DNA of 64,000 bases. Origin: Alkalibacterium putridalgicola. GTDB lineage: Bacteria; Bacillota; Bacilli; Lactobacillales; Carnobacteriaceae_A. Under the pieces are notes generated by a model, which saw only the letters and a program-made list of their open reading frames with translations, was not told the origin of the DNA and did not search any database. A program made the translations under genes and the position numbers. This document shows, one piece after another, positions 4,947 to 19,760 of the stretch. The stretch lies in NCBI RefSeq assembly GCF_900109825.1, contig NZ_FOBL01000001.1, positions 124,001 through 188,000 on the forward strand, given 5' to 3'. Within the stretch, counting starts at the first letter, position 1; each line of letters starts with the position of its first letter.

Positions 4947-7017
<2,071 letters not shown>

Positions 7018-7176: not shown

Positions 7177-7806
7177 TTAACCCATGTCCTTCACTTTCAT
7201 CAGACGGGTGATTGCTGCACGTTCACTTTCATCCAGTTTCATTTGAATGAAGTAAATGGTTTCTTCAAGTTGAGGAATCGTCATATATTCCAATGCGTTT
7301 ACACGACGTCTTGTTTTTTCGATTTCATCCGCCATCAGTTGACATGTTTTTTCAATTTCTGCCAATTCTAACATTTGCGGCATGACTTCTACAAGATATT
7401 CAAATGTCAAATCCAGTTCACCATTCGAATTTAAATAGCCGTATGTTAACTCTGTCGCATCATCGACACTTTCATCATATTGAAAGTTCATCTGAGGTAC
7501 TCTGACACTCATAATGTTTCGACGCCCCATATTTAAAGAGACACTTCGTGTTGGAACAGCCATCAGTTCTTCGATATAGTTCTCATGTAATAATGACTTG
7601 GCCATCGCAAAAGACTGCATGGCTTTCTCCAGCTTTTCTTCTACAAGATTTCTCAATTCATTATTTTTTCTAATCAACTCAATAAACTGACGCATAAGCT
7701 CATCTTGTTTGTCTTTCAGGAGCTTATGACCACGACTTGCCAGACTTAAACGTTTCTTTAAGTTGGCAAGCTCCATACGAGTGGGGTTGACGTCTAACTT
7801 GGCCAT
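7177..7806 (-). CDS. ntpD: V-type ATPase subunit D (central stalk)
   Basis: Coiled-coil rotor shaft that transmits rotation between the A3B3 head and the membrane ring. It has 209 residues, starting [20 protein letters not shown] and rich in heptad-like leucines, with the conserved ATD signature [15 protein letters not shown] near 165-180. It is the last gene of the ntp operon, five bases after ntpB and followed by a strong terminator. The E. hirae operon continues with ntpH and ntpJ; neither is present here. Confidence 0.94.
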
Positions 7807-7811
7807 TTACC

Positions 7812-9188
7812 TCACTCTCCTTTGGGCATATATTTGTCTAACATATCGTCTTTAATACGTTTCAATTCAGGTCTTGGGAGAACTCTCAGTAAGTCCCAGC
7901 CTAAATCCAGAGTTTCTTCGATCGATCTGTCCGTGTAGTTACCCTGGTTAACATATTCTTTCTCAAATTTATTTGTAAATTCAACGTATTTCTTATCTGA
8001 ATCAGACAAGGCAGCTTCACCAAGAACTGCAGACAATTCTTTGGCTTCTTTACCTTCGGCATAAGCAGAGAATATCTGGTTCATGGTTGGTGCATGGTCT
8101 TCACGTGTTTTGCCTTCACCAGTCCCTTTGTCTTTCAGACGGGACAAGGATGGCAGGACATCGATTGGAGGCTGATAACCCTGGTTATAAAGTTCACGCG
8201 ACAGGATGATCTGTCCCTCAGTGATATACCCTGTCAAGTCAGGAATCGGGTGAGTGATGTCATCTTCCGGCATGGTCAGGATAGGGATCTGAGTTACTGA
8301 TCCTTTTGTTCCTTCCAGTCTTCCGGCACGTTCATACAAGGTCGCCAAGTTGGTATATAGATACCCTGGGTACCCACGACGACCAGGAACTTCACGACGG
8401 GCAGCTGAGATCTCACGCAAAGCTTCTGCGTAGTTCGTCATATCCGTCATGATAACAAGAACGTGCATGTCTTTTTCAAAGGCCAGATATTCAGCCGCTG
8501 TCAAAGCCATACGAGGAGTCGCGATACGTTCGATCGCCGGGTCATTAGCCAGATTGATGAATAGTACAGAACGGTCGATCGCGCCTGTTTCTTTAAAGTC
8601 GTTCATAAAGAATTCAGCTTCCTCGAAGGTGATCCCGATAGCTGCGAAAACAACCGCAAATTTTTCATCTTTATTTGTAACGCTGGCTTGTCTGGCTATT
8701 TGAGCAGCCAGTTCTTTATGGGGTAGTCCAGAACCAGAGAATACCGGTAGTTTTTGTCCACGTACCAGTGTATTCAGGTGGTCGATCGTTGAAATACCCG
8801 TCTGAATAAACTCATCCGGATATTCACGCGCGATCGGATTGATTGCCTGTCCATTGATATCCAAACTTTTTTCCGGAATCAGATCCGGTCCGCCATCGTT
8901 CACGCGTCCCATGCCGTCAAATGTACGGCCGATCATATCTTCTGAGACGTCAAGAGATAGAGGCTTTCCAAGGAAACGAACCTTCGTCTCATCCAAGTTG
9001 ATACCAGATGATCCTTCAAACAACTGAACGACAGCTTTATCGCCATTGATTTCCAGTACTTGTCCACGACGACGTTCACCTGTCTGGAGTTCGATATCTA
9101 CTAATTCGTCGAATTTAACTCCTTCAACACCTTGAACGGTCATTAACGGTCCAACGATTTCAGAAACTGTTTTATATTCTTTAAGCAT
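7812..9188 (-). CDS. ntpB: V-type ATPase subunit B (non-catalytic head subunit)
   Basis: Forms the alternating hexamer with subunit A and carries the arginine-containing interface, without a functional P-loop. The 458 residues match the family (about 458-460). Seen are the family segments [15 protein letters not shown] where subunit A has Walker [21 protein letters not shown], and [12 protein letters not shown]. The start overlaps the end of ntpA by eight bases, which points to translational coupling and A:B stoichiometry of 1:1. Confidence 0.96.
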
Positions 9189-10965
9189 CTGATTCTACAC
9201 CACCTTTCTCAAGTACTACTTTCATATCGTTTTCGATTTGTGTGTTTATTTCTTGAATGCGGGATAATTCTTCTTCAGGAACAAATTTCATACGTCCGAT
9301 TCTTTCACGTACGTCTTCGGTCCCTTTAATGATTTCGTCGTAGTATGCGCCTAGATCCATTGCCTTTTCGGCTTCCTGCTGATACTTAAGGATAGCATTC
9401 AGCATTTCATACTGTTTATTTCTGGATGTATAGGTATCGACATCATCAAAGGCATTCTGCTGCAGATAGTCTTCACGGACCATACGAGCTGTGACCAGTT
9501 TCAACCGGTCTCTTTCAGATAAGGATTCCACACCGACCAGACGAACGATTTCCTGCAGTTCCGACTCATCCTGAAGCAATGACTTAGTATGGGTGACCAT
9601 ACCGCTCCAGTCGACGTTCAGTTTACTGCCGACAAAGGAATTCATATCATTCGAATATAGTGAATATGAATTCAGCCAGTTGATAGACGGGAAGTGACGA
9701 CGCTGCGCCAGCGAGCTGTCCAGACCCCAGAATACTTTAGCGACACGCAAAGTGTTCTGCGTAACAGGTTCAGATGTATCTCCCCCTGGAGGTGATACGG
9801 CTCCGATCGCTGTGATACTTCCTTCTCTGCCGGTGCTTCCTAAGGAAACGACTTTTCCGGCACGTTCATAGTACTCAGCTATACGACTTCCTAGATAAGC
9901 AGGATACCCTTCATCACCAGGCATTTCTTCAAGACGTCCAGACATCTCACGCAGAGCCTCGGCCCAACGGGATGTTGAATCAGCCATGATCGCGACTGAA
10001 TAACCCATGTCACGGAAATATTCTGCAATCGTGATACCGGTATAAATAGAAGCCTCACGGGCTGCCACCGGCATGTTAGACGTGTTAGCGATCAGCACAG
10101 TTCTAGCCATGATCGATTCGCCAGTATTCGGGTCGATCAGTTCAGGGAATTCATTAATAACGTCGGTCATTTCATTCCCACGTTCACCACAACCTACGTA
10201 GACAACTAAGTCAACGTCGGCCCATTTAGCGATCTGATGCTGAACAACTGTTTTACCCGCTCCGAACGGACCTGGTACAGCAGCTGCGCCACCCTTAGCT
10301 ACAGGGAACAAGGTATCGATAACACGCTGACCAGTGATAAGTGGTTCGACCGGATTCAGTTTTTCTGCAATCGGTCTACCCTGACGTACAGGCCATTTCT
10401 GAATCATTGTAAATTCTTTATCGCCTTGATCAGTTTCTAAGACATAAATCGTATCGGTAACAGTGAAAGACCCTGTTTCGATCGATTTCAATTTCCCTTT
10501 AACACCATATGGAACCATGATGCGATGTTCGATAACGTTTGTTTCCTGAACGGTCCCCACGATATCGCCTTCAGTCAAATCTGTCCCGACTTCTACAGAA
10601 GGAACAAACTCCCATTTTTTATCACGATTCAATGGGGCAATAGTCATTCCTCTTTCAAGGTAATTACTTTGCGTTTTTTCCATAAATTCATCAAGAGGTC
10701 TCTGGATCCCGTCAAACATCTGTGAAATCATACCGGGTGCTAATTCTACTGATAAAGCTTCTCCAGTCGTTTCCACAGTTTCGCCAGGTCCGACCATTGA
10801 TGTTTCTTCATAAACCTGAATTGAGGCTACGTCGCCTCTCATTTCAATAATTTCGCCGATCAGTCCTAATTCACCTACTCGACAAATATCTTGTATATTT
10901 GCTGTTTCCATACCACTAGCTGTAACCAGTGGGCCGGAAACACTCACAATCGTTCCTTTACTCAA
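9181..10965 (-). CDS. ntpA: V-type ATPase catalytic subunit A
   Basis: ATP-hydrolysing subunit of the head. Walker A GPFGAGKT is at 232-239; the family's non-homologous insert follows the N-terminal barrel, and [15 protein letters not shown] and [18 protein letters not shown] are catalytic-domain segments. Length 594 is typical. The start is TTG at 10965, seven bases after AGGAGGG; I see no better ATG. It lies 12 bp behind the F-subunit gene and overlaps ntpB. Confidence 0.97.
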
Positions 10966-10977
10966 ATTCGTACCCTC

Positions 10978-11289
10978 CTATAAGATATTTTGACCCACAG
11001 CTTTTTCCACATTATCCTGGACACGTTTTTTACCGATTCCTCGTGACCCGGCATGATTCGGGATCAAAATGATGGCAGGTTTCATTTTTGCATCGTAGCG
11101 TGTAATGGTTTCTGGTATCATCTCTGCCAATTGTTCTGTTAAATATATTACTCCATAATCTTTATCTGCCATACTGTCGATGATACGGCGCGCTTCTTTA
11201 GCTTCAGATGCGAAAGACACAGAGAATCCAAGCATTTTAAAAGCCAATACGGACTCTTTATCTCCAACAACACCAATTTTATTAGGCAT
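10978..11289 (-). CDS. ntpG: V-type ATPase subunit F (NtpG)
   Basis: Small central-stalk subunit that binds subunit D; called NtpG in E. hirae and F in general V-ATPase naming. The 103 residues begin MPNKIGVVGDKESVLAFKMLG, the F-subunit signature, with GVIYLTEQLAE in the middle. It overlaps ntpC by eight bases and precedes ntpA, the normal position. Confidence 0.93.
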   Translation of the reverse strand: MPNKIGVVGDKESVLAFKMLGFSVSFASEAKEARRIIDSMADKDYGVIYLTEQLAEMIPETITRYDAKMKPAIILIPNHAGSRGIGKKRVQDNVEKAVGQNIL

Positions 11290-12283
11290 AGTTTAATCGC
11301 ATCCTTTCTCTAATTTCATCCGCGGTCAAGCCATTCTCTTTACCTGAAAGAATCAAGCGCAAATTCATCACTTCTGTTTCTTTCGCATACAGATAAGCAA
11401 TAACAGGCTTTGGCCCAAATGATTCCAGACGTGCTTCGCGCATTTTTTCCATGTAAGCTTTGTCGGTCTCATAGTCAACATTGACCGTTGACAATTCTCC
11501 GGTATCCTTATCGATCGCTCTATTTACGATATCACGATAATCAGTCTTTTTATAGTACTCGGCTACAGCATTTAGATCTTTTTCAACTAGCTCAAGCAAA
11601 TCTGCTTTCGGTATGGATCCGGAACTTGACAAAATCGTCAGCATAAAGTTGCGCGTACGATTCTGCTGTATCCCTCTAACAAGTGTTGAAAAATTATTAT
11701 AATCGATGTGGCGTTCAATCAATTCCGGCACACCAGATTCGCCAGTTTCATCAGCTAATAGACGGGCATGTGTAAAATAGCGTCTGTCCAGTATGATGTC
11801 TACTGCCTGCACATTGTGGTATTCCTCATAATCAGTTTTCACTTCGTTTATACTGTTCATATATTCTTCAGGTAGAACGTCTGACTCTCGTGTACGAACA
11901 GCCTGACGTAATTCAGAGATGGGATACCGTCCGATAGGAATAAACAAATGATCCAAATCCTGATCAGTTATTTCTTCCTTAAAAAGGACTTTCATGTTGT
12001 GATATGCATAGCGTAATCCAAAAAGTTCAATCAATTCCTTGTTCGGTACAATATTAAGCATCTCATTATACGTCTGATGCAGCTCATTCATGAACATTGA
12101 GTCGTAATTTTTGTCTTCTTTTATTCTATCAACATCATTACGATAAGGTGTTTCACGAAGTACATTAACAGCCTCTTCAAATGAATCTGCTGTCAGCATT
12201 CTTTCAAAATGAGCACGAGTGAGGAGGTTGTTCTCGTAGACACGTATGAGAACATTACTTGAACTATAAGCGGTATCTTTCAA
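11282..12283 (-). CDS. ntpC: V-type ATPase subunit C (d-type, NtpC)
   Basis: Cap on the membrane ring that couples the central stalk to the c-ring. The 333-residue protein is all-helical in look and includes the family segments LRETPYRNDV and AYLYAKETEVMNLRLILSGK. The start is TTG at 12283, eight bases after AAGGAGG; no ATG in the first codons is better placed. Between ntpE (13 bp upstream) and ntpG (overlap). Confidence 0.94.
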   Translation of the reverse strand: MKDTAYSSSNVLIRVYENNLLTRAHFERMLTADSFEEAVNVLRETPYRNDVDRIKEDKNYDSMFMNELHQTYNEMLNIVPNKELIELFGLRYAYHNMKVLFKEEITDQDLDHLFIPIGRYPISELRQAVRTRESDVLPEEYMNSINEVKTDYEEYHNVQAVDIILDRRYFTHARLLADETGESGVPELIERHIDYNNFSTLVRGIQQNRTRNFMLTILSSSGSIPKADLLELVEKDLNAVAEYYKKTDYRDIVNRAIDKDTGELSTVNVDYETDKAYMEKMREARLESFGPKPVIAYLYAKETEVMNLRLILSGKENGLTADEIRERMRLNYA

Positions 12284-12296
12284 ATCTTTCTCCTCC

Positions 12297-12878
12297 TTAA
12301 TTGAATAATTCTTTAGCTATGATGCGAATGAGCTCCGATCTTGAATCTTCGATCAATGCATCGAACATGAAGTTGTACTCGACTCCTTCTTTCTGCACAA
12401 GTACACCTGCTTTATCATCAACGGTTTCGTTTGAAAGTGTTGCCTGCAGCTGCGTACCCGTTGTTTCATCGATCCATTCCTGAGAAACAAGACCAGATGT
12501 TTTTTCTCCTAATATGAGTTCAACGCTGCCTTCAGTTTTGAACTGAGTCAGGATGTCAGCAAGAAATTTCTTGAATGCAGGGGCCTGAATCTGATTCAGT
12601 TCCTGATTCGCATCTTCCAATACTTTTGAAAGAACCCTTTGTTTTGCTGCTAGGATATTGTTTCTTTTCTGAACTTCTAACGTGTTTAGACGTATTTTAT
12701 ACTTTTGTTGAGTCTGTTCATCGATTGTTTGTTTACGTACAATTTTATCTTGTTCTTCTTTTGCACGAGCAGCCTGGATCTCGTCTTCAGCATTTTCACG
12801 TGCTTCTTCTACACGCTGACGGATCGCTGTTTTTTCTTTCTCAACAACTCTTTCTGTCAACAGTTTTAAATCTGCCAT
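12297..12878 (-). CDS. ntpE: V-type ATPase subunit E (peripheral stalk)
   Basis: Peripheral stalk (stator) subunit pairing with NtpF. The first 110 residues form a charged Glu/Lys/Gln-rich coiled coil; the C-terminal half is globular and contains VSQEWIDETTG and GVLVQKEGVEYNFMFDALIE. Length 193 is normal. ATG at 12878 follows AAGGAGG. It is separated from ntpK by 88 bases that hold a stem-loop. Confidence 0.93.
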   Translation of the reverse strand: MADLKLLTERVVEKEKTAIRQRVEEARENAEDEIQAARAKEEQDKIVRKQTIDEQTQQKYKIRLNTLEVQKRNNILAAKQRVLSKVLEDANQELNQIQAPAFKKFLADILTQFKTEGSVELILGEKTSGLVSQEWIDETTGTQLQATLSNETVDDKAGVLVQKEGVEYNFMFDALIEDSRSELIRIIAKELFN

Positions 12879-12966: not shown

Positions 12967-13440
12967 TTATAAGATAATCATTACTAAGGAAATAACGAAA
13001 CCTAGAATTGCGTAAGTCTCAACCATCGCTGAGTAGATGATCCCTTTAGTTGTATGTTCTGGTTTTTGAGCCAAGATCTGCATAGCAGCTGCAGAAACGC
13101 GTCCTTGGTTACCACCAGAAGATAAACTTGTGATCCCAACTGGAAGACCAGCCATCAATAAATACCATCCTTGAGATACAGCCATGTCAGGAGTGATTTC
13201 AAGCAGGATCAACAGCCCGATTACGAAACCGTAAAGACCTTGTGTTGCTGGTAGCATTTGTAGTACCAATGCACGACCAAATGATTCTGGTTGTTCTTTA
13301 GTTAAAGCTGCTGCTGCTTCACCGGCAGTTGAAACCCCGCGTGATGAACCGATTCCTGAAAAGATAACTGCTACTGCAATCCCTATCGCCGCAAATACCT
13401 GACCCATGTTGTCTCCGAAAAGTGTTTGTACAAAATCCAT
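12967..13440 (-). CDS. ntpK: V-type Na+-ATPase subunit K (c-ring proteolipid)
   Basis: Forms the rotating ring that carries the ion. The 157-residue protein is a fused two-hairpin proteolipid with four membrane helices. The E. hirae Na+ site residues are all present with an offset of two: Leu63, Thr66 and Gln67 in LPATQGLYGF, Gln112 in GGNQGRV, and the ion-binding Glu141 in AMVETYAILGF. This is why I read the enzyme as Na+-translocating, although sequence alone does not exclude H+. Four bases behind ntpI, with a hairpin after its stop. Confidence 0.96.
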   Translation of the reverse strand: MDFVQTLFGDNMGQVFAAIGIAVAVIFSGIGSSRGVSTAGEAAAALTKEQPESFGRALVLQMLPATQGLYGFVIGLLILLEITPDMAVSQGWYLLMAGLPVGITSLSSGGNQGRVSAAAMQILAQKPEHTTKGIIYSAMVETYAILGFVISLVMIIL

Positions 13441-13443
13441 AAT

Positions 13444-15417
13444 TTATTCCTCCATTTTATAATTAGCTTCTTTTTTTAACCATATATGTTTTTCAAGTGT
13501 TCTCAGAGGAAGCAACGGTTTGCCGCCACCCTCAAAGAATTTACCGAAAAATTCTACATATTGTAACCTAGATGAATGAACATACGCACTTAAGAAAGCC
13601 AGTGCAATATTTAAAGCCTGTAATGCAATGATCAGTACGACACCGACAGTGAATCTGATCAACGGTGGCAAGAAACCGATGATCAGGTTAAATGCCATAG
13701 CAATGTTCGCACTTGCTACACCAAGAGCCATTAATCGCGTATAACTTACGATATCTCCGATATAGCCAGAGACTCCATATAAGTTATATAGACCGAGTCC
13801 AAACCCAAGTCCTTTGTTCTTGCTTGAGATAGTGGAAACGACTAGAATACCGACTACATTGAGCAATGCCAGACCAATACCGATTTGAGACAGTAAAGAA
13901 ACATCCCAGACCATTGACCCCAGCACATAGAGCACGACACCTACGAGCATCATAGCCCATGCATACCCATCGATATAACTTGAGGCTCTCTGTCCTTGAC
14001 GCCCTTTGATGATACCATTCATGATCAAGCCGAATACCAACTGGAAAATTCCGATGGCGACGGAAATGATCATAATCTCAATTACATCGTCTTGAAGAGA
14101 AAGCACTTGTATGGGCAGTTCTATCCCGAAGAAACTTCCGAAAAATAATCCAAAAGCCATAGTCGGATACGAAAGTATATACAGGAACTTGAGAAATCTT
14201 TTTGTAGACCCTTCAATGTTAAAGTATTTTAAAGCACCAAACGTTGCAACCCATAATATTAGACCATAACCCAGATCGGCACCGATCATCCCAAAGAAAA
14301 TCAGAAAGAACGGGAACATATAAGGAGTAGGATCGACTTCATTGTATTGTGGGTAACTGAACATCTCAGTGATCATTTCAAACGGCTGAATTAATTTGTT
14401 GTTCTTAAGAACAATAGGTACATCTCTGTATTCTTCCATCTTAATTTCATCCGTGAGTATAACAACATCGTTTTCACCGACTGCCAGGTTGATGCTGGAC
14501 TTCAATTCCTCAACTTTTTCTTCCTCTATCCATCCAGTCAACATGAACAAGTGAGGACTATCGACGAGGATATCCTTCGCTTTGTTTCTTTCGGATAAAT
14601 TGTAATAGTATTCTTCCGCTAACTGCAAGTCTTTATAAACTGACTTCCAGCCTTCCATTTCTTTTTTATGATCAGCCAGCGTCTCTCTTTTTTCTTTCTG
14701 TTCCAGCAGATTTCTGTACAGCGCATCTTCCGGCAGCATTTCGTAGTCATAGTTTAGTTCTTGAAAACTGTACTGACTGATACTATCCGTCAATGTTTCC
14801 ACATCATCTTTAGGAAGAATAAAGAGATACGCCACTTCATCACTGCGTCTGTATACTTCCTCGTAATATATCTTGCCATTTTCTTTCAATGTATCGATAA
14901 GGGGCTCGGCATGCTCTATATCTACCGTACCGATCATGATGTGCATCAGGTTGAACCGGTCGACTTCATTCGGCATGAAATTAAGTCCCCGCCATTTTCT
15001 CAGGAACTGTTCTTCTTGTTTTAATCTTTTAAGCTCTTCGCCGAGTGTATTTATTTCCTGTTCTTTAACTGACACAAGATCGAGTGATGTATCTATGTTC
15101 GCCGCCTCAACATGTGTTTCCAATTCGGAGAGCGTATAAACGTCTCTTTTAGATTTCAGTTTTTCGATCAGGCCCGGCTGAATAACGTAGTCATCCAGGT
15201 AATCGATAGCATACTCGATATCCTGAAGTTTCCCCTGTAGATCCTGGGTTTTTGAAACAGGTGTTTCTCTTATGAACTCTTTTAGTAAATCTTCATCGTC
15301 TTTATCAGCAAGTGAAGTAACTTCGAGACTCTGCATCTCCTGTACTCTTTTTAAAACATCCTCTTTATGAGCATGTTCTGCTAATAATGTCAACTTTTTC
15401 ATTTTAGCTATTGCCAT
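13444..15417 (-). CDS. ntpI: V-type ATPase subunit I (a-type membrane stator)
   Basis: Membrane stator that forms the ion half-channels against the K ring. It has 657 residues: a cytoplasmic N-terminal half (about 1-330) of coiled coil and alpha/beta lobes, then seven or eight membrane helices. The essential Arg is in GDIVSYTRLMALGVA, in the usual context. ATG at 15417 lies inside the ntpF 3' end, a 14-base overlap; a second in-frame ATG five codons later (MAIAKM) is possible. Confidence 0.95.
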   Translation of the reverse strand: MAIAKMKKLTLLAEHAHKEDVLKRVQEMQSLEVTSLADKDDEDLLKEFIRETPVSKTQDLQGKLQDIEYAIDYLDDYVIQPGLIEKLKSKRDVYTLSELETHVEAANIDTSLDLVSVKEQEINTLGEELKRLKQEEQFLRKWRGLNFMPNEVDRFNLMHIMIGTVDIEHAEPLIDTLKENGKIYYEEVYRRSDEVAYLFILPKDDVETLTDSISQYSFQELNYDYEMLPEDALYRNLLEQKEKRETLADHKKEMEGWKSVYKDLQLAEEYYYNLSERNKAKDILVDSPHLFMLTGWIEEEKVEELKSSINLAVGENDVVILTDEIKMEEYRDVPIVLKNNKLIQPFEMITEMFSYPQYNEVDPTPYMFPFFLIFFGMIGADLGYGLILWVATFGALKYFNIEGSTKRFLKFLYILSYPTMAFGLFFGSFFGIELPIQVLSLQDDVIEIMIISVAIGIFQLVFGLIMNGIIKGRQGQRASSYIDGYAWAMMLVGVVLYVLGSMVWDVSLLSQIGIGLALLNVVGILVVSTISSKNKGLGFGLGLYNLYGVSGYIGDIVSYTRLMALGVASANIAMAFNLIIGFLPPLIRFTVGVVLIIALQALNIALAFLSAYVHSSRLQYVEFFGKFFEGGGKPLLPLRTLEKHIWLKKEANYKMEE

Positions 15418-15730
15418 ATCGACGCAATACCTCCTCTGCTATTCGATTGGCTAACACATCTTTTTTTTCTTTATAAGCAACATCGAACTTAACGGTCTCA
15501 GCCTGAACGGCTTCTTCCATTTCCTGCTCATCTTTTTCCAAGGCCTGTCTCATTTCATCGTGTTTCTTTTCCTTGTAGGCTTCCACTTCCTGTTTCGTGA
15601 TTGCCTGATGATGTGAGATTTCCTCTTCTTTTTTTGCATTTATTTCCTTGATTTCCGCCTTAGCGTTAGCACGCAGCTCTTCTACTCTCGCTTCAGCTTC
15701 TTTAACATAATTTATAGCTTCCCGGTTCAT
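15404..15730 (-). CDS. ntpF: V-type ATPase subunit G/H (peripheral stalk, NtpF)
   Basis: Coiled-coil stator partner of NtpE and the first gene of the operon. The 108 residues from ATG at 15730 are almost entirely charged helix (MNREAINYVKEAEARVEEL onwards). I prefer this ATG over an upstream in-frame one, because AAGGGGGA lies just before it and the longer form would be translated through the leader hairpin. It overlaps ntpI by 14 bases. Confidence 0.92.
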   Translation of the reverse strand: MNREAINYVKEAEARVEELRANAKAEIKEINAKKEEEISHHQAITKQEVEAYKEKKHDEMRQALEKDEQEMEEAVQAETVKFDVAYKEKKDVLANRIAEEVLRRYGNS

Positions 15731-15745
15731 TTTCTTCCCCCTTTC

Positions 15746-15815
15746 AAAAAAAGTGGGCGCAGCTAACAAGCTTCTTCTCACCCCAGAAGAAATTATCCTT
15801 GAAAGCTAACGCCCA
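15746..15815 (-). promoter_or_regulatory. ntp leader hairpin with T-run (attenuator or riboswitch candidate)
   Basis: On the minus strand, between promoter and ribosome-binding site, a long hairpin is followed by T7 (15746-15752). TGGGCG pairs with CGCCCA (15810-15815 with 15754-15759); above it lie AGCT/AGCT, CAAG/CTTG and TTCTTCT/AGAAGAA, separated by small internal loops (TT/G, TT/TT, GATAAT/G). The heptamer GTTAGCT occurs on both arms. The layout fits an intrinsic terminator in a 5' leader, so expression of the operon is probably set by read-through. The ligand or factor is unknown. Confidence 0.75.
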
Positions 15816-15851
15816 ACCGTATAAAAATTATTATTTATGTCCTACTCTAGA

Positions 15852-15880
15852 ATAATACCATACAACATATGACTTGTCAA
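15852..15880 (-). promoter_or_regulatory. ntp operon promoter
   Basis: Minus-strand TTGACA (15875-15880), 17-bp spacer, TATTAT (15852-15857). It is near consensus for the housekeeping sigma factor. Transcription would begin near 15845 and give a leader of about 115 bases. Confidence 0.88.
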
Positions 15881-15894
15881 CTAGTATACTAGTT
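15879..15894. promoter_or_regulatory. 16-bp perfect palindrome at the ntp -35 box (operator candidate)
   Basis: AACTAGTATACTAGTT is a perfect inverted repeat that shares two bases with the -35 hexamer of the ntp promoter. The placement suits a dimeric repressor or activator. I do not recognise the regulator that would bind it. Confidence 0.7.
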
Positions 15895-15933
15895 TTCCGG
15901 GTTGGGTTAAGCTTATTGTATTAATTTATGGAA

Positions 15934-16806
15934 TCAGTCTGTTCGACTGTGCCCATAACTGAAAACAGCAATCGAACCAAAGCCTGTATGTGCCGCTACT
16001 GTCGGACCATAACTGGAAACTATCATTTCTTTTGGACTGACTCTTTCAAGTATTTTATCCCTGATCAATTCAGCTTCCTCTTGTACACCGACATGGCCAA
16101 TGAAAATCGAGTGGTTTTCAGGATCGTTCACGCCCTTGATCGTCTGTTCGACAAGATAGTTTAGGGATTTTTTCCTGCCTCTCAATTTAGTAGCTGGTAC
16201 AAGTCTGCCTTCGGGATCCATAATAAGGATCGGTTTGACATGAAGCAGAGAACCCACTGTAGCAGCCGTGGAAGAGATTCTGCCACCACGATGCAGGTGT
16301 TTGATATCATCGACTGTCACCCAGGAATGATAATTCAGTTTATTTTCTTCCACCCAGTCAATGAGTTCTTCTTTCGTATACCCTTCTTCCTGCTTCTGGA
16401 CCGCCTCATAAACCAGCAGCCCTTGCCCAAGACTGGCAGCTTTCGTGTCTATAATATCTATATCCACTTCACCAAACTCTTCCTCGAGCATTCTTTTAGC
16501 CTGAACGGCTGAGTTGAATGAGCCTGACAGAGCTGAAGAAAAAGCTAAGTAAAGAACCGGCATCCCCTGCTCAATATAATGTTTGAATTTCTCTAAGTAT
16601 GAATGCACGTTGACTTGAGAAGTGGAGGCCGTTTCTCCTTCTTTGAGACGTTGAAAAAAATCCTCTTTATCAAATTTTTCTCCCATGTCATCTGCTAATT
16701 CTTCATCGCCGATTCTAATAGTAAAATTGACGATCGCCAGATTATATCTCTCGACCAGCTCTAAAGGCAAATCACTACAAGAATCAGTAATAATCTGGTA
16801 GTTCAT
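15934..16806 (-). CDS. DegV family fatty-acid-binding protein
   Basis: DegV/FakB-type protein that binds a fatty acid for phosphorylation by a FakA kinase; no fakA is in this window. The 290 residues begin MNYQIITDSCSDLPLELVER and show the family segments TSQVNVHSYLEKF, YLAFSSALSGSFNSA, HRGGRISSTAATVGSLLHVKPIL and the C-terminal GPTVAAHTGFGSI. I chose ATG at 16806 because AAGGGG stands upstream at a normal distance; a GTG four codons earlier overlaps that site. Divergent from the SOS-type gene at 16957. Confidence 0.93.
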   Translation of the reverse strand: MNYQIITDSCSDLPLELVERYNLAIVNFTIRIGDEELADDMGEKFDKEDFFQRLKEGETASTSQVNVHSYLEKFKHYIEQGMPVLYLAFSSALSGSFNSAVQAKRMLEEEFGEVDIDIIDTKAASLGQGLLVYEAVQKQEEGYTKEELIDWVEENKLNYHSWVTVDDIKHLHRGGRISSTAATVGSLLHVKPILIMDPEGRLVPATKLRGRKKSLNYLVEQTIKGVNDPENHSIFIGHVGVQEEAELIRDKILERVSPKEMIVSSYGPTVAAHTGFGSIAVFSYGHSRTD

Positions 16807-18994: not shown

Positions 18995-19558
18995 TTATTT
19001 TTTCGGATGAAAGATAACAGGTGAATTTCTATAAAGTATCAGCATGACGATCATAGTCACAAATCCGGTCACCAGCATACTTAAACCGTTCATAACGAGT
19101 GAAAACAATACCGCACTCATTCCCCAGAGAGCATAATCCCCCCAGAAGATCCACCCGGCGATAAAATGCCAGAAATAGCGTCCTAGAGCTCCGAAAAAGA
19201 CGGCGACGAGAATGTAAAATTGAACAGTTTTGTGATTATTTAAAGAAATATTCTTCAGTATGTCTTTACTGTAGAAGCCGGCCAGTCCAACAAAGGCATA
19301 AGCCAGCGTATATTCGATCATGACCTGATAAATATTCAGCATGTATACTGAACCAGTGACAAAATGCAGAAGCCCCCAAAGAAAACCAGCATACAGGCCC
19401 GGTACGAGTCCTCTTCTGATCGCATAGAATGTCAGTGGAATCATTCCTAGAGAGACACTGAATGATGATCCGATACCTGTTGGAATAAATGATAAAACCA
19501 TCGCTATCGCGGCAAATAATGTCCCTTCCAAATAAATACGCAGTTTTCTGTTTTGCAT
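18995..19558 (-). CDS. thiT: Thiamine ECF transporter substrate-binding subunit ThiT
   Basis: S-component of an energy-coupling-factor transporter that captures thiamine; it needs the shared EcfA/A'/T module, which is not in this window. The 187-residue protein has six membrane helices. Family segments are seen: SLGMIPLTFYAIRRGLVPG, GFLWGLLHFVTGSVYMLN, and the thiamine-site region ALGRYFWHFIAGWIFWGDYA. The upstream TPP riboswitch independently supports the assignment. GGAGGAG six bases before ATG is part of a hairpin that can hide it. Confidence 0.96.
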   Translation of the reverse strand: MQNRKLRIYLEGTLFAAIAMVLSFIPTGIGSSFSVSLGMIPLTFYAIRRGLVPGLYAGFLWGLLHFVTGSVYMLNIYQVMIEYTLAYAFVGLAGFYSKDILKNISLNNHKTVQFYILVAVFFGALGRYFWHFIAGWIFWGDYALWGMSAVLFSLVMNGLSMLVTGFVTMIVMLILYRNSPVIFHPKK

Positions 19559-19603: not shown

Positions 19604-19649
19604 AGGCTTACCTGAGCTCGAAACTCAGAAGCTTTAGTTCTCACATCAA

Positions 19650-19739
19650 GTACTCTTCCTGCGCACGCATTAACGTACAGGTTCAAAGGGTCTAAACTTT
19701 CAGTTCACTCTCAGTCAATATCATTGACTCCCCTAGTAC
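19650..19739 (-). ncRNA. TPP riboswitch (THI-box) upstream of thiT
   Basis: Minus-strand sequence shows the conserved elements in order: GGGGAGTC, CTGAGAGTGAACT, ACCCTTTGAACCTG, AATGC and AGGAAG, closed by GTACT/AGTAC as P1. It binds thiamine pyrophosphate and lowers thiT expression when the cofactor is plentiful. The aptamer starts 21 bp behind the rnjB stop. Confidence 0.95.
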
Positions 19740-19760
19740 AGTATGATTATTTAATTAAAT

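Follow-up and report, generated by a model that had tools for sequence, protein, structure and literature searches.

The window analysed here, a 64,000-nucleotide stretch of the Alkalibacterium putridalgicola genome, contains an ntp operon encoding a Na+ V-ATPase, preceded by a leader for which the initial annotation had suggested an attenuator, possibly a Na+ riboswitch. The locus thus raises the question of whether expression of this pump responds to the ion that it expels and, if so, by which RNA rearrangement. We favor, at a probability of about 90%, a Na+-I (DUF1646) riboswitch that would switch on transcription of the operon.

Class of the leader and the operon behind it

The features discussed below are all encoded on the minus strand of the window, the leader elements described by the initial annotation being located upstream of ntpF.

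15852–15880, minus: promoter, TTGACA (15880–15875), 17-nt spacer, TATTAT (15857–15852), 11 of 12 consensus matches
15772–15818, minus: Na+ riboswitch aptamer (RF03071), whole model 1–55 matched (Rfam, 52.9 bits with a gathering score of 40.5; E 4.5e-8 for the 64-kb window)
15799–15816, minus: aptamer hairpin P1, UUG/CAA and GGC/GCU, UU bulge, GUUA loop (Rfam structure line)
15772–15791, minus: aptamer hairpin P2 with the conserved loop GGGGUG (15784–15779), kept in both states (Rfam alignment)
15755–15814, minus: predicted terminator hairpin, P1 region paired with 15770–15755, P2 enclosed (free and constrained folding)
15746–15752, minus: U-tract (T7) of the intrinsic terminator (sequence)
15734–15745, minus: ribosome-binding region GAAAGGGGGAAG (sequence)
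15404–15730, minus: ntpF, first operon gene, 108 aa (name assigned from its position and from homologues in relatives)
13444–15417, minus: ntpI, V-type ATP synthase subunit I (E 9.7e-163, below the curated cut-off of the model)
12967–13440, minus: ntpK, membrane ring subunit (NF005124, above cut-off)
7177–12878, minus: ntpE, C, G, A, B and D, rest of the V-ATPase operon (ORF list and profile matches)

The near-consensus promoter of the initial annotation was confirmed: when the 110 nt preceding the aptamer were mononucleotide-shuffled 200 times, its 11 matches were equalled once. Across 20 family leaders, the best promoter scores of the scan ranged from 9 to 12 of 12 and stood above the shuffle background in 18, the scores of the other two being equalled by 95 of 200 shuffles. 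Judging from the −10 box, transcription probably starts near 15845, which gives a leader of about 115 nt, in agreement with the length first proposed. Likewise, T7 lies, as described, just ahead of the ribosome-binding region of ntpF (15752–15746, then 15745–15734), which is followed by the ATG at 15730.

The whole window was scanned with Rfam 15 at gathering thresholds, giving three matches, RF03071 among them, and a permissive scan of 15600–15950 (up to E = 1) revealed no family other than RF03071. The scan with the DUF1646/Na+ covariance model that the initial annotation had called for therefore returned a match above the curated cut-off, the sole Rfam match in the leader, and the guess of a Na+ riboswitch (the former DUF1646 motif) held. 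Judged by its sequence, the leader is a predicted Na+-sensing riboswitch of a known class, RF03071. The conserved core is present, with the UUG/CAA base of P1, GGGC and GCUUUCAAG, and the GGGGUG loop of P2, the loop end of P1 being 8 model positions shorter than in RF03071. Mutations of two sites, the AA of the P1 base and the GG of the P2 loop, have been shown to abolish Na+ binding (White et al., 2022; PMC9337991); both sites are found in this leader. The genome has a single RF03071 copy, located ahead of ntp, and the aptamer precedes a Na+-related function, an ntp operon with a Na+-type ring subunit.

Much of the leader can also be drawn as one stable hairpin with T7, which is what an ordinary intrinsic terminator or attenuator without ligand would look like, the aptamer match being then due to chance or a relic. 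This reading, very improbable in our estimation, is rejected because of the covariance-model match, with its E of 4.5e-8 and its score above the cut-off; it is further opposed by the retention of the aptamer sequence in 20 of 27 family genomes with variable linkers.

Downstream of the leader, nine genes follow in the order ntpF, I, K, E, C, G, A, B, D. NtpF had no NCBIfam or Pfam match, and the named relatives of NtpI are foremost Alkalibacterium and Marinilactibacillus species. The nearest solved structure of NtpK is 2bl2, the K ring of the Enterococcus hirae Na+ V-ATPase (E 4.2e-52). The Na+ ligands of the E. hirae subunit, which we take to be Leu61, Thr64, Gln65, Gln110 and Glu139, are all identical in the 2bl2 alignment, positions being counted by hand. 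After ntpD, a gene for a patatin-like phospholipase (Pfam PF01734) is found at 5653–7017 on the minus strand. In E. hirae, ntpJ is a K+ transporter gene; no such gene was noticed among the ORFs listed around 5653–7017. Elsewhere in the window, a TPP riboswitch (66.5 bits, 19638–19744, minus strand) is located directly before ORF 18995–19558, which by eye resembles a thiamine-type membrane transporter.

A member of the class with altered ion specificity, for example for Li+, is envisaged for some representatives in the discussion of PMC9337991. For the present leader we regard this as most unlikely, since its core positions match the Na+ consensus and the pump that it controls has a Na+-type ring.

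Exclusive folds and proposed mechanism

Secondary-structure calculation gave the terminator as the free fold of the leader, with a folding energy z of −2.34 (2 of 200 shuffles as good). Its stem consists of GGGCGU (15814–15809) paired with GCGCCC (15760–15755), AGCU (15807–15804) with AGCU (15764–15761) and CAAG (15801–15798) with CUUG (15770–15767), and encloses the hairpin with the loop GGGGUG. The long hairpin followed by T7, initially read as an attenuator, thus stands as a terminator in calculated folds (15814–15755, then T7). The internal loops noted in this hairpin are real, although they belong to the terminator, or OFF state, and not to the sensor, which is the alternative fold. As for the heptamer GTTAGCT, it is present on both arms (15810–15804 and 15767–15761) but is not the conserved feature: both copies occur in just 4 of 20 family leaders, and the direct repeat was consequently rejected as key element. 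The conserved property is the ability of the arms to pair, AGCU being self-complementary.

Since the terminator arm pairs with P1 itself, aptamer and terminator cannot coexist, and since the terminator uses P1 but retains P2, the two states are mutually exclusive via P1, an exclusivity of expression platform and aptamer found by calculated folding only. When the aptamer (P1 and P2) was enforced in transcripts with a 3′ end between 15772 and 15763, the cost was 1.7–2.1 kcal/mol above the free ensemble; for the aptamer-competent ensemble it rose to 5.1 kcal/mol at 15760, to 14.8 once 15754 was reached and to 15.8 when T7 was complete, all these values describing secondary structure alone, without Na+ or tertiary contacts. 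Such energies suggest a kinetic switch, in which Na+ would have to bind during the brief time that precedes completion of the terminator arm.

The class has been shown to bind Na+ selectively, with a KD of about 2.2 mM for kefB and about 15 mM for an RNA from Lactococcus garvieae, and Na+ binding, Na+-dependent read-through and reporter activation have been measured for a class member (White et al., 2022; PMC9337991). For the present copy, we infer Na+ binding, the direction of switching and the effect on the level of the pump. In the proposed mechanism, RNA polymerase would start near 15845 and complete the aptamer at 15772, and over the next ~10 bases the aptamer and the competing folds would lie within about 2 kcal/mol of each other. 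At high intracellular Na+, the ion would bind where P1 meets the loop of P2 and keep P1 closed; the GGGC of P1 would then not be free, no terminator would form and the operon would be transcribed. At low Na+, the arm 15770–15755 would instead pair with the P1 region, with P2 nested inside, and the polymerase would halt in T7. By expelling Na+, the pump would close a negative feedback loop, and the pump genes are most likely read solely when Na+ builds up inside the cell.

When folding is constrained to the aptamer, the terminator arm that it sets free and the U-tract can pair with GGGGG of the ribosome-binding region, as would be expected if the aptamer fold freed or masked the ribosome-binding site, instead of acting on T7, in a Na+ OFF or translational switch. 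In the read-through RNA, the freed CCCACUUUUU can notably pair with AAAGGGGG of this region at −6.8 kcal/mol (15756–15737, minus strand), a predicted pairing that would oppose an ON switch. However, CC and a U-tract followed by AAGG will almost inevitably be capable of pairing, so that a hairpin at the ribosome-binding region is weak evidence; it may be unavoidable from these sequences or form a second layer of control. An OFF or translational switch is further opposed by the pairing of the terminator arm with P1 of the aptamer, which prevents both from coexisting, and by the class member reported in PMC9337991 to be an ON switch acting by termination. We consequently hold it to be improbable, and retain the transcriptional ON switch.

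The best described example for comparison is Clostridium acetobutylicum kefB (PMC9337991), which resembles the present leader in its P1, linker, P2 and conserved loop, and likewise has an intrinsic terminator overlapping the aptamer and a predicted ON response by termination. P1 is, however, short in this leader, and while the kefB terminator reportedly uses up P2, the terminator here is predicted to consume P1 and to keep P2. The terminator layout, as modeled, would therefore differ from that of kefB, and a P1-consuming terminator represents a testable layout. Na+-II (nhaA-I variant) and Li+ riboswitches (PMC9646797) are likewise alkali-ion-sensing leaders of cation transport genes, with an RNA architecture different from that of this leader.

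The Na+-I riboswitch is reported in PMC9337991 ahead of V-type ATPase genes in various enterococci and clostridia, which makes the present leader a further member of a class already described. These cases share with it the class, the kind of operon and the proposed purpose, whereas Alkalibacterium and its relatives are not named in the main text of that paper. Literature searches found no paper linking Alkalibacterium with a riboswitch, or V-ATPase with a sodium riboswitch by those terms. The proposed switch would confirm in a further group the proposal made by White et al. (2022; PMC9337991) on enterococci and clostridia, and would provide a mechanism by which Na+ governs the V-type pump of alkaliphilic and marine lactic acid bacteria. 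In addition, the leader would constitute a compact natural reporter for intracellular Na+.

Recurrence in relatives and comparative tests of pairing

The same RF03071 aptamer class precedes ntp operons in related genomes. Within the family, 20 of 27 genomes gave an RF03071 match, each time ahead of ntp. Three other family members (G013, G017 and G020; loci L178–L180) possess an ntpK above cut-off and gave no RF03071 match, locus L180 not extending to the ntp leader. Among 78 named loci of NtpI relatives, 53 were scanned with Rfam: the aptamer was present in 18 of 18 loci from Alkalibacterium, Marinilactibacillus, Lacticigenium, Atopococcus and a Carnobacterium bin, in none of the 18 loci of the next set and in one of 17 of the third (a Vagococcus). 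At the level of the order, RF03071 was matched in 156 of 395 sampled genomes (121 above cut-off) and the V-ATPase K subunit in 205 of the same genomes, 111 having both. By family, the K-bearing genomes that also have RF03071 amount to 20/23, 14/15, 65/66 and 9/10, and in two others to 0/22 and 3/69; the riboswitch is therefore a regular feature of some families, whereas others have it seldom or not at all.

To these counts can be added 99 fetched loci, made up of the top matches and of 60 hand-picked among the matches listed, some near relatives being skipped. The gene downstream of the aptamer was typed in tblastn searches with a single representative per kind, and Pfam names were verified in six cases. 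It was NtpI in 63, of the Na+/H+ exchanger type in 23, a P-type cation ATPase in 12 and a Na+/Ca2+ exchanger in one, proportions which, owing to the hand-picking, are not those of a random sample.

The alignment of ntp leaders for covariation proposed in the initial annotation was made with 32 of the 63 ntp leaders (30 distinct), chosen by eye for a terminator near the aptamer and a similar P1 length, and its outcome was divided. On the one hand, 88.6% of terminator cells were paired against 85.9% after shuffling, 14 cells had both-sided changes against 5.0, and the covariation score was 0.247 against 0.198, none of these values being reached in 500 shuffles; slid versions of the structure were 30–57% paired. 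On the other hand, neither the number of pairs with a both-sided change (3 against 2.3 shuffled; 198/500) nor that of pair types (12 against 11.1; 174/500) stood above the shuffles. The elevated cell counts and paired percentage reflect few evolutionary events, and little covariation is possible in the terminator because its 5′ arm is held by the aptamer. Within the aptamer, both-sided changes were found in four of the seven P2 pairs of the 30 distinct leaders; as five of the six P1 pairs never vary, P1 is without covariation support in these leaders.

Two further tests followed rules devised for this analysis. In a swap test of 93 distinct leaders, which ignores kinship among them, pairing of the arm with its own P1 region averaged −14.83 against −12.06 (sd 0.24) after permutation, a difference reached in none of 10000 permutations; the fraction of foreign P1 regions doing as well had a median of 0.25 per leader, also the value for the window's leader. 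In a fold survey of the 99 leaders, the predicted terminator started in P1 in 75, with P2 kept in 74 of these; 23 had a detached or other terminator and none was found for one. The terminators detached from P1 (e.g. L043, L049, L062 and L067) belong mostly to ntp leaders, and such leaders would need another coupling between aptamer and terminator. Since the survey prefers the first T-run with a 5-pair stem, some leaders counted as detached (e.g. L081 and L082) may nevertheless have a direct terminator.

A DNA motif in ntp operons without the aptamer

The genera lacking the aptamer can serve for comparison, the same operon being there apparently under another kind of control. Of 27 ntp loci counted as lacking RF03071 at the gathering threshold only, 19 (among L117–L136, L143 and L144) contain the motif TTTCTTC(C/T)TAT(T/A). 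The motif precedes ntpI by 465–472 nt in 17 of these 19 loci and by 450 and 546 nt in the remaining two, and lies, by eye, upstream of the likely ntpF promoter; none of the 27 loci has its reverse complement or the reversed pattern at that place. Within the 400 nt upstream of the 63 riboswitch-bearing ntp leaders, the motif was absent from the same strand, and one leader (L092) has it on the opposite strand.

A stricter form, TTTCTTCYTATTA, is found once per genome, before ntp, in Trichococcus collinsii and Granulicatella elegans. In at least 16 genomes of the order sample, including 11 of 11 of one genus among the matches listed, it is located 2.4–2.5 kb before ntpK. At least one copy is present in 263 of the 395 genomes and a reversed control pattern is about equally frequent; as TTTCTTCYTATTA is thus common elsewhere by chance, only its placement before ntp is telling. 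The motif is possibly the operator of a regulator. Tentatively, one may imagine that control of ntp has been solved twice in this part of the Bacilli, by a Na+ riboswitch in one set of genera and by a protein at the DNA motif in others, and that in Lactobacillales the riboswitch class mainly dismantles P1 and keeps P2, a combination that we consider doubtful as it stands.
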